Source: Tepidiforma thermophila
GTDB taxonomy: Bacteria > Chloroflexota > Dehalococcoidia > Tepidiformales > Tepidiformaceae
Assembly (NCBI RefSeq): GCF_002563855.1
Contig: NZ_PDJQ01000001.1
Location: forward strand, 124,001-188,000
Reading direction: 5' to 3'
Length of the DNA stretch: 64,000 bases
Position numbers and translations under genes: made by a program. Shown here piece after piece: positions 43,266 through 51,176 of the stretch (the stretch's first letter is position 1; each line of letters opens with the position of its first letter). The notes under the pieces are model-generated. The model was not told the DNA's origin. It was given only the letters and a program-made list of their open reading frames with translations, and did no database searches.

Positions 43266-44321
43266 ATGACGTCGCCTTCGTTTGTGGACGTTCCCGGGCT
43301 GAATTTCGACTGGTTGAACCTCGACACGGAGACCGGCGCGCGGCTGCAGGCGACGCGGCGCGGGCTGACGCTGGAGCAGATCAACACCCTGACGCGGTAC
43401 GGGGTGGTGGACCTCGACGAGGCGGGCGCACCGGTGTTCAAGCCGCGCGGTGCCCTGGCCGACCCGCGGTCGCCGCGGCATGCGCGGCAGTACCGTTCGA
43501 AGGCGGACGTCTGGTCGGAGAGCGCGATGCTGCTCTACGAAGAGGCGAACCAGCGGCAGTGGTCGAGCGCGGTGGATATCCCGTGGGAGACGATCCAGCC
43601 GCTGCCGGATGACCTCGAATGGGCGATGTGCACGCTGTGCACGTTCCTGACGCAGGTGGAGTTCATTGCGGGCGACCTGCCGGGGCGGTTCATGGAGCAG
43701 GTGCACCCGGACCACTTCGAGTCGCAGCTGTTCCTGGGCACGCAGATTATGGACGAGAGCCGGCACCTCGACGTGTTCCGGAAGCGCGCGCTGGTCAACG
43801 GCGGCGGGATGGTGGATGCCGGGTTCGGCGCCATCAACCTGCTGTCGGTGGATGACTTCACCGAGATGACGGCGCTGCTGCACCTGGTGGGCGAGGGGTT
43901 CGTGCAGACGCTCTTCCGGATGGGCGAGCTGATTGCGCAGAACGAGGCGGAGAAGAAGATTTTCCGGCTTTCGGCGCAGGACGAGAGCCGCCACCTGGCG
44001 TTCGGTGTGACGCACATGAAGTACGTGATGGACACCGAACCGTGGCGGAAGGAAGAGATGCACCACTACCTGGACATCCAGGAGGGGGCGCTGGCGCAGA
44101 GCCAGCAGGCGAGCCTGACGACCAACCCGACGACGGGGGAGGCGCTGGCGATTCTTGCCGGCGGCGGCATCGAGCATATCGACGAGGGGTACGCGAAGCT
44201 GCTGCTGATGCGGAAGCGGCAGGTGAACGAGTACATGCACCGGCTCGAGGTCATCGGGCTGGGCGACCGGCGGGAGCGGATGGCGCCGGGCCTGCGCGAA
44301 TTCCTCGACCCGGTGAACTGA
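43266..44321 (+). CDS. R2/ferritin-like diiron carboxylate protein
   Basis: The 351-residue protein has a complete set of diiron ligands with the spacing of ribonucleotide-reductase R2 and R2lox proteins: Glu132, Glu164-x-x-His167 (DESRH), Glu210 (GEGF), and Glu240-x-x-His243 (DESRH). Helices are predicted around each. No radical-site Tyr of R2 can be fixed from the sequence. Possible roles are an R2lox-like oxidase, an N-oxygenase of the AurF type or another oxidase; I cannot choose. GGAGGTG at 43254-43260 fits the ATG. A paralog without metal ligands follows after 46 bases, so the two may form a heteromer. Confidence 0.75.
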   Translation: MTSPSFVDVPGLNFDWLNLDTETGARLQATRRGLTLEQINTLTRYGVVDLDEAGAPVFKPRGALADPRSPRHARQYRSKADVWSESAMLLYEEANQRQWSSAVDIPWETIQPLPDDLEWAMCTLCTFLTQVEFIAGDLPGRFMEQVHPDHFESQLFLGTQIMDESRHLDVFRKRALVNGGGMVDAGFGAINLLSVDDFTEMTALLHLVGEGFVQTLFRMGELIAQNEAEKKIFRLSAQDESRHLAFGVTHMKYVMDTEPWRKEEMHHYLDIQEGALAQSQQASLTTNPTTGEALAILAGGGIEHIDEGYAKLLLMRKRQVNEYMHRLEVIGLGDRRERMAPGLREFLDPVN

Positions 44322-44367
44322 CTGGCGGCACCCCCACCAGCGACCTCGCAGCCGAAAGGATGGACCG

Positions 44368-45576
44368 ATGCAGCTGAGCACCGCGACGAAGACACGCGCC
44401 CGCGAACTGGGCTGGAGCGAGGAGACGATCGCCCGCATCGAGGCGTCGCCGCTCAAAGACGTGACGGTGGCGAACATCGCGATGATGCGCATCCCGGAGG
44501 AGCGGGTGCGCGGCTTTCTCGACCTGGTGGACCGGGACCCGGAGCGGATACCGAACGTGACCTTCAACTTCATCCGGACCCGTTCGGAGCGCGGGGTGCG
44601 CGCGAAGCCGAGCGAGCGCGGGTTGCTGCTGAAGGACATCAACATCGGAACGTACGGGCAGGTGCCGGACCACTGGCCGTACGAGAACGACACGCCGCGG
44701 GGCGCGCACCCGTCGCCGGACAACTACGCGCCCGGGAGCTACTACATCTACGACAAGGTGGAAGTCTGGGCTGAGGGTGTCGACGAGCTGTACGAGGATG
44801 CCATCCGCGACCGGTGGGTGCCGGCGACGGACCTGGACTGGAACGAGGGGCTGGCGGAGCTGCCGGCGGAGATCGAAAAGGCGGTGTGCCAGCTGGCGAC
44901 GCTCTACAGCGGGCACGGGCTGGTGGAGCAGAAGATCCTCGCGAAGTGGCTGGAGCCGATCAGCTACGGCTTCCACGACGTGAAGCTGTTCCTTGGGACG
45001 CAGATTTACGACGCCGGGCACAAGGTGGAGGCGCTCCGCAAGCGGGCGCTGGCGAACGGCGGCGGGCTGGGGCAGGCGCCGCTGGGTGCGCTCTACCGGG
45101 CGTGGTACGGGGCGCTGAAGTTCACCGAGATGATCACGGCGGTAGATGTGGTCTACAAGTCCTACGAGCTGACGCTCTTCGAGGCGTACGGCGACTTTGC
45201 GAAGACCGAGGTGGAGCGGAAGCTGTTCTCGCTGCTGGCGCGGGATTCGCGGCGGCACCTGGAGTACGGCAAGCGGCACCTGCTGTGGTACATCCAGCAC
45301 CACCCGCGCGGGCGGGAGAACGTGCGGTTCTGGCTGGGCCGGGCGGAGGCGGCGCTGAGCATCGAGCTGCGCTACAGCCATGCCGAGCGCGAGGCGCTGG
45401 CGCTGCTGTTTGCGGGGGACATGGAGCGCCTCCAGGCGGGCATCGAACGGCTCGGGAAGCTGCGGGAGAAGCAGCTGCACGACTACCTCGGGGTGCTCGA
45501 TGCGGTGGGGATTGACCGGCTGCCGCAGGTGAGCCCGCACCTGGTGGCGATCGCGGAGGACCCACTGGCGGTGTAG
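44368..45576 (+). CDS. paralog of the diiron protein with degenerate metal site
   Basis: The 402-residue protein aligns with its upstream neighbour through LYEDAIRDRWVPATDLDW, KLFLGTQIYDAGHK, ALRKRALANGGG and ARDSRRHLEYG. At the six ligand positions it has Gly, Ala, Lys, Lys, Ser and His, so five of six ligands are lost. An extra N-terminal segment of about 90 residues is new. It probably cannot bind a diiron centre and may be a structural or regulatory partner. GAAAGGA lies 12 bases before the ATG. The two genes are almost certainly one operon. Confidence 0.75.
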   Translation: MQLSTATKTRARELGWSEETIARIEASPLKDVTVANIAMMRIPEERVRGFLDLVDRDPERIPNVTFNFIRTRSERGVRAKPSERGLLLKDINIGTYGQVPDHWPYENDTPRGAHPSPDNYAPGSYYIYDKVEVWAEGVDELYEDAIRDRWVPATDLDWNEGLAELPAEIEKAVCQLATLYSGHGLVEQKILAKWLEPISYGFHDVKLFLGTQIYDAGHKVEALRKRALANGGGLGQAPLGALYRAWYGALKFTEMITAVDVVYKSYELTLFEAYGDFAKTEVERKLFSLLARDSRRHLEYGKRHLLWYIQHHPRGRENVRFWLGRAEAALSIELRYSHAEREALALLFAGDMERLQAGIERLGKLREKQLHDYLGVLDAVGIDRLPQVSPHLVAIAEDPLAV

Positions 45577-50636: not shown

Positions 50637-51176
50637 GTGCAGCTTTCTGAATCGCTGACGCGCGCGTACAACGCGCAGATCAAGCTAGAGTTTGAATCGT
50701 CGTTCGTGTACCTGCAGATGGGTGCGGACTTCGAGCTGCGAAGCCTGCCGGGGTTCAGCCACTGGATGCGGCTGCAGTCGTCGGAGGAGTACACGCACGC
50801 GATGAAGTTCATCAACTTCGTGCTGGAGCGCGGGGGGAAGCTGGAGCTGCTGGCGCTGGACAAGCCGGCGCCGACGCCGGGGACGGTGGTGGAGGCGTTC
50901 GAGGCGGCACTCCGGCATGAGCAGCGGGTGACGAAGGCGATCCACGACCTGTATGCGCAGGCGCTGGAGGAGCGGGATTATGCGTCGCTGCCGTTGCTGC
51001 AGTGGTTCGTGAACGAGCAGACGGAGGAGGAGGCGACGGTGAGCACGATCCTCGAGCGGCTGCGGATGGTCGGCGATGACCGGACGGGCATCCTTTTCAT
51101 GGACCGGGAGCTCGGGCAGCGCGCGGCGGGCGCGGCCGCGGCCTCCCAGGCGAAGGCCGAGGAGGGCGCCGAGTAA
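50637..51176 (+). CDS. ferritin
   Basis: The 179-residue protein stores iron in a 24-subunit shell. Helix A has LEFESSFVYLQM with the ferroxidase Glu, helix B has EEYTHAMKFINFV with Glu-x-x-His, and the later helices carry LRHEQRVTKAIHDL and NEQTEEEATVSTI. This is the FtnA-type pattern. An Ala-rich tail (QRAAGAAAASQAKAEE) extends beyond the fold. The GTG start follows GGAGG at a good distance. It lies directly behind the minisatellite array. Confidence 0.93.
   Translation: MQLSESLTRAYNAQIKLEFESSFVYLQMGADFELRSLPGFSHWMRLQSSEEYTHAMKFINFVLERGGKLELLALDKPAPTPGTVVEAFEAALRHEQRVTKAIHDLYAQALEERDYASLPLLQWFVNEQTEEEATVSTILERLRMVGDDRTGILFMDRELGQRAAGAAAASQAKAEEGAE

Follow-up and report, generated by a model that had tools for sequence, protein, structure and literature searches.

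A putative dinuclear metal protein of Chloroflexota and its metal-site-less paralog as probable subunits of one oxygenase or oxidase

The window analyzed here is a stretch of 64,000 nucleotides from the 2.74-Mb genome of Tepidiforma thermophila (G000), and it contains two neighboring genes on the forward strand, referred to here as A and B. Gene A (positions 43266 to 44321, with its ATG at 43266 and its stop codon ending at 44321) encodes a ferritin-like protein of 351 amino acids that resembles R2 and R2lox, and gene B (44368 to 45576, ATG at 44368, stop codon ending at 45576) encodes a paralog of 402 amino acids. Both frames are complete and are separated by 46 bases, and these coordinates and start and stop codons confirm the pair of open reading frames that a sequence-only reading of the window had described. 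A search with A in its own genome identified the two proteins as true paralogs (E = 3.7e-46, 33% identity), and the good alignment noted in that reading is thus no product of chance.

Alignments give A all six ligands of a predicted dinuclear metal site (E132, E164, H167, E210, E240, and H243, all within 43266 to 44321), of which Glu132, the ligand on the first helix, is encoded at 43659 to 43661. The six ligands sit in predicted helices spanning residues 115-145, 148-177, 198-223, and 227-257. Opposite them, B has G184, A216, K219, K264, S294, and H297. The ligands of A are present as the sequence-only reading had claimed, and the A/B alignment gives exactly the Gly, Ala, Lys, Lys, Ser, and His that it had listed for B. 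Separately computed MAFFT alignments, with 71 to about 143 rows each, recovered the same columns; none of them restored the ligands of B, and a ligand-bearing B was rejected.

We compared the pair with a sequence set made up of A and B proteins from relatives, 80 named loci, 400 genomes sampled from the phylum, and the genomes of A loci without an adjacent B. The named loci came from a scan in which each bacterial and archaeal species was represented by one genome, and all belong to Chloroflexota or to unnamed bacteria, although the scan relied on two short peptide patterns and might have overlooked distant relatives outside Chloroflexota. In the resulting rows, which include near-copies and so do not represent independent events, the six ligands were invariant in 114/114 A rows from Chloroflexota. 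A thus has the pattern of R2-like dinuclear metal proteins (E, ExxH, E, ExxH) in all 114 rows and in the predicted helices; B has a ferritin-like fold in its predicted structure but lacks the ligands. Among 83 B rows, none of the ligands was retained in 6, one in 55, and two in 22, and never more than two. The replacements differ between B clades: G-A-K-K-S-H in the clade of the window, A-L-H-D-R-M in a second type of pair, and Q-Q-H-x-L-H in a third clade, with A-A-H-N-T-Q and A-D-A-D-K-H also seen. The ligand-adjacent residues D163, D239, and R242 of A remain in B and probably support the fold. His206 of A (43881 to 43883), one turn before E210, behaves differently: it is invariant in 114/114 A rows and kept in only 9/84 B rows, and its conservation in A and frequent loss from B indicate that it is probably part of the active site of A, possibly as a seventh ligand or a second-sphere residue. 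The extra histidine of AurF/CmlI-type proteins, four residues before E240, is absent from A, in which this column holds Ser, Ala, or Cys.

Loss of the metal site has not relaxed selection on B to the level of a decaying gene. Against four relatives, the dN/dS of B was 0.056 to 0.177 versus 0.027 to 0.100 for A, and the B protein evolves faster than A. Its frames are full-length across many families of the class. In the window clade (n = 33), the residues at the former ligand positions are fixed or nearly so (G184, K219, K264, and H297 in 33/33, S294 in 32/33, and A216 in 30/33). Because dN/dS is low and the replaced positions are almost fixed, B is, as judged by selection on its sequence, functional and under purifying selection.

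The phylogenetic profile also connects the two genes. Among 60 distinct genomes with A (36 from relatives, 9 more in the phylum sample, and 15 more reached from the loci, solitary outgroup proteins being excluded from the A count), 59 also have B, and B without A was found in none. The exception, G460, has A only and may be incomplete. In 61/80 named loci, the gene immediately downstream of A is B; contig ends truncate another 2, and the remaining 17 have no adjacent B. When we looked in the genomes reached from these A loci without an adjacent B and from two intermediate loci, B was present somewhere in 16/17, and several genomes (among them G449, G458, G459, and G464) have a single A and a single B that lie on separate contigs. 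The sequence-only reading would have been undermined by frequent occurrence of either gene alone, and this is not what the genomes show, although 17/80 individual A loci lack a neighboring B. Copy numbers of A and B are equal in many genomes, but A outnumbers B in some (3/2 in G052 and 4/2 in G451), and there may thus be A proteins that work without B or that have one B in common. A subtypes 1, 2, and 3 accompany B subtypes 1, 2, and 3 and never mix. The genome of the window itself has a second pair (G000:C1, 2383-2385 kb), the A protein of which is 58% and the B protein 40% identical to that of the window pair. Linkage and co-occurrence are, of course, partly confounded by common descent. Two irregular gene copies were seen: the second A gene of another Tepidiforma genome (G001:C1, 301911-302922) is spread over three overlapping frames and is thus frameshifted, by assembly error or because the gene is broken, and one B (L079, 1099-2284) is split across four frames in a metagenome-assembled genome, probably through sequencing errors.

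No neighbors of the window-type pair are conserved beyond close relatives, and we saw no reductase or conserved pathway gene beside the window pair. An ORF about 5 kb downstream (50637-51176) resembles an ordinary ferritin. Several B genes in other genomes are followed by a member of a conserved, unassigned protein family of about 150 amino acids (L105, 8722-9177; L133, 5154-5609; L142, 7393-7839, and L149, 5689-6195, the latter two on the minus strand), which also adjoins solitary A-like proteins (L144, 7734-8186; L145, 7965-8426) and has one unlinked copy in the genome of the window (G000:C1, 751682-752104). This family had no Pfam or PDB match, and an SCP2-like identity was dropped for that reason. 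At 13 loci, namely, the second pair of G000 (L141, 12418-13179) and 12 related loci, the second pair type has a nearby gene for an iron-dependent DtxR-type repressor that carries a FeoA domain.

With regard to family, neither A nor B matched a Pfam family above threshold, and a literature search found no paper naming the A/B family. A profile of A searched against the PDB gave R2lox and VlmB as the best relatives (E about 1e-4), a VlmB homolog (6d9f) being second best (E = 2e-4). In R2lox, a Tyr162-Val72 ether cross-link forms near the metal site (PMC6060897). The corresponding column 205 of A, five residues before E210, holds Leu in 58, Met in 54, and Val in 2 of the 114 rows and never Tyr, and around Val72 the register of the A/R2lox alignment could be off by one residue. 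Lacking the cross-linking Tyr and scoring 33.4 bits against NCBIfam NF006200 (R2lox; cut-off, 194), A was not accepted as a member of R2lox. The radical Tyr of R2 lies four residues after the helix-2 His, and here A has Phe171 in 114/114 rows. Class Ic ribonucleotide reductases also have Phe at this position, so the replacement is not decisive alone; with a score of 15.9 bits against Pfam Ribonuc_red_sm PF00268 (gathering score, 33.6), it led us to reject A as a class I ribonucleotide reductase small subunit. The first-helix ligand is Glu in R2c and R2lox and Asp in classical R2 (PMC3824934), and the Glu of A, together with Phe171 in place of the radical Tyr, means that the metal of A could be either Fe/Fe or Mn/Fe.

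The predicted structure of B (pLDDT 73) is a ferritin-like bundle that matches VlmB, aldehyde-deformylating oxygenase, R2lox, and the alpha and beta chains of methane monooxygenase hydroxylase with Z scores of about 21 to 24; VlmB is nominally the best (Z = 23.6), matches within 1 of each other being tied. The AlphaFold model of A (pLDDT 51) is too poor to rank families by fold search, and its best matches (VlmB, aldehyde-deformylating oxygenase, PaaA-like proteins, desaturases, and R2lox) all had E values above 0.01.

The history of the pair can be read from five solitary proteins that have all six ligands and branch outside both A and B. In a midpoint-rooted tree that includes such relatives, B forms one clade (100/100) and A forms another (83/91), a topology for which a single duplication accounts. 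B has an N-terminal helical domain (residues 1-60, 44368 to 44547; pLDDT about 90 in the predicted structure), and a sequence search of the PDB with this domain returned nothing below E = 0.3. By counts that include repeats, the domain is present in 69/95 B frames, 0/132 A frames, and 3/4 solitary relatives tested. The functions of the ancestor thus look divided: on the simplest reading, it would have combined the metal site and the N-terminal domain in a single protein, and after duplication the site stayed with A and the domain with B, some B proteins losing the domain later. A 4Fe-4S ferredoxin gene occurs near three of the solitary ligand-keeping relatives (L143; L144, 8183-8479; and L146); it fits an enzyme in need of electrons and plausibly encodes their electron donor.

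Taken together, these observations suggest that A and B are probably subunits of one heteromeric oxygenase or oxidase in the R2/R2lox/VlmB superfamily, A being the catalytic subunit and B a metal-free structural or docking subunit. The lines of evidence that lead to this proposal are the invariance of the ligands in A, the selection on B, the co-occurrence of the genes, the cognate subtypes, the single duplication, the distribution of the N-terminal domain, the fold of B, and the precedents discussed below. The sequence-only reading had favored a heteromer, in which the second subunit might bind substrate or a partner, as the explanation for a retained paralog without a metal site, and the profile, linkage, subtypes, and selection, all drawn from sequence, lend it further weight. 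We infer from this evidence the physical A/B complex, the metal content and O2 chemistry of A, and the docking role of B. In the proposed mechanism, A would carry a dinuclear site (Fe/Fe or Mn/Fe) and activate O2 in a soluble, non-haem enzyme; B, the duplicate that lost its site, would now serve as a structural subunit pairing with A, and its N-terminal domain would probably dock a further component or a substrate carrier. More tentatively, the pair may represent the first heteromeric branch of R2lox/VlmB-like oxygenases, an undescribed Chloroflexota system in which an ancestral two-domain enzyme was split into a catalytic subunit and a metal-free one of independent origin and the vacated site of B, with its two invariant lysines in the window clade, became a subtype-specific binding or docking site; we regard this as possible rather than probable.

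Other roles for B would also explain its retention. It might be a maturation factor or chaperone that assists A in metal loading or solubility and is not a fixed-ratio subunit of the working enzyme. The same role has been proposed for Rnr4 (PMC3824934), the excess of A over B in some genomes fits a shared helper, and the repressor near the second pair type hints that metal status may matter. The presence of a particular B subtype for each A subtype and the equal numbers in many genomes fit a stoichiometric partner better, however, and we consider a maturation role unlikely. B could alternatively be a ligand-binding or sensor protein with a separate function, linked to A by a common pathway; its conserved, clade-specific residues could form a ligand pocket in the vacated site, and not all A and B genes are linked. 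Yet B was never found without A in the genomes seen, and the subtypes match and the trees mirror each other, which makes a separate function rather more doubtful than a helper role.

It is also conceivable that A is an independent homodimeric oxidase and that the pair is the leftover of an old tandem duplication, as the solitary ligand-keeping relatives with their nearby ferredoxin gene and the 17 A loci without an adjacent B might suggest. Given that nearly all the genomes reached from such loci do encode B elsewhere, independence of A seems very improbable. Least credible of all is the chance retention of B as a decaying duplicate: its faster protein evolution is what one would expect, but a dN/dS well below 1, full-length frames in many families of the class, and fixed replacement residues leave this idea with almost no plausibility.

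If the heteromer proposed here is real, it would add one more example, apparently of independent origin, to the dinuclear-metal enzymes that have converted a duplicate into a metal-free subunit, and its surviving solitary relatives would illustrate how the protein probably looked before it was duplicated. A comparison of A, B in several of its subtypes, and the solitary protein then makes it possible to test why enzymes of this kind retain an inactive copy. Moreover, because A and B lack a Pfam family above threshold, a whole Chloroflexota branch would possess an oxygenase system that currently has no name.

The layout itself has precedents, contrary to the sequence-only reading, which knew of no described pair of this type. 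Catalytic PaaA and structural PaaC share one fold at 17% identity and form a heterodimer (PMC4498308), and yeast Rnr4, which lacks the diiron residues, pairs with Rnr2 as a heterodimer (PMC3824934). A and B resemble the PaaA/PaaC pair of the phenylacetyl-CoA epoxidase PaaABCE in combining a catalytic ferritin-like subunit with a structural paralog of the same fold encoded in one operon, and the predicted site of A (E, E/H, E, E/H) is close to that of PaaA (E, E/H, D, E/H). They differ in that A is closer in sequence to R2lox and VlmB, the A/B duplication arose inside its own family, no paaB- or paaE-like neighbor was noticed beside A/B, and the PaaA/PaaC Pfam family was matched neither by A and B (Pfam-A up to E = 1) nor by members of their family (up to E = 0.1). 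With Rnr2/Rnr4 they share an R2-like active subunit and a paralog without diiron residues, but in A the radical Tyr is replaced by Phe171, and Glu132 stands where classical R2 has Asp.

Methane, phenol, and toluene monooxygenase hydroxylases likewise combine a diiron alpha chain and a metal-free beta chain of one fold, and the H and L chains of ferritin are another active/inactive pair on the ferritin-like fold. The model of B can be aligned to alpha as well as beta chains (Z about 21), but the alpha chains are far longer than A, which matches no Pfam family, and no effector or reductase gene was noticed beside A/B. R2lox, characterized by a Mn/Fe cofactor and a bound fatty acid, includes the best PDB sequence relatives of A and shares its first-ligand Glu; it differs in its cross-linking Tyr and is, to our knowledge, not known as an active/inactive pair. 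Similarly, the VlmB/aldehyde-deformylating oxygenase group, which supplies the second-best match to A and the best fold match to B, is only about 12 to 20% identical, and we know of no metal-free partner subunit in it. The gene layout found here is PaaA/PaaC-like or BMM-like, a predicted catalytic subunit and a metal-free paralog of the same fold being encoded together. In sum, the layout of an active/inactive pair on the ferritin-like fold was already known, though not described for the A/B family; what is new is this family, its restriction to one phylum as far as the scans reach, its apparently independent duplication, and the preservation of its solitary relatives.
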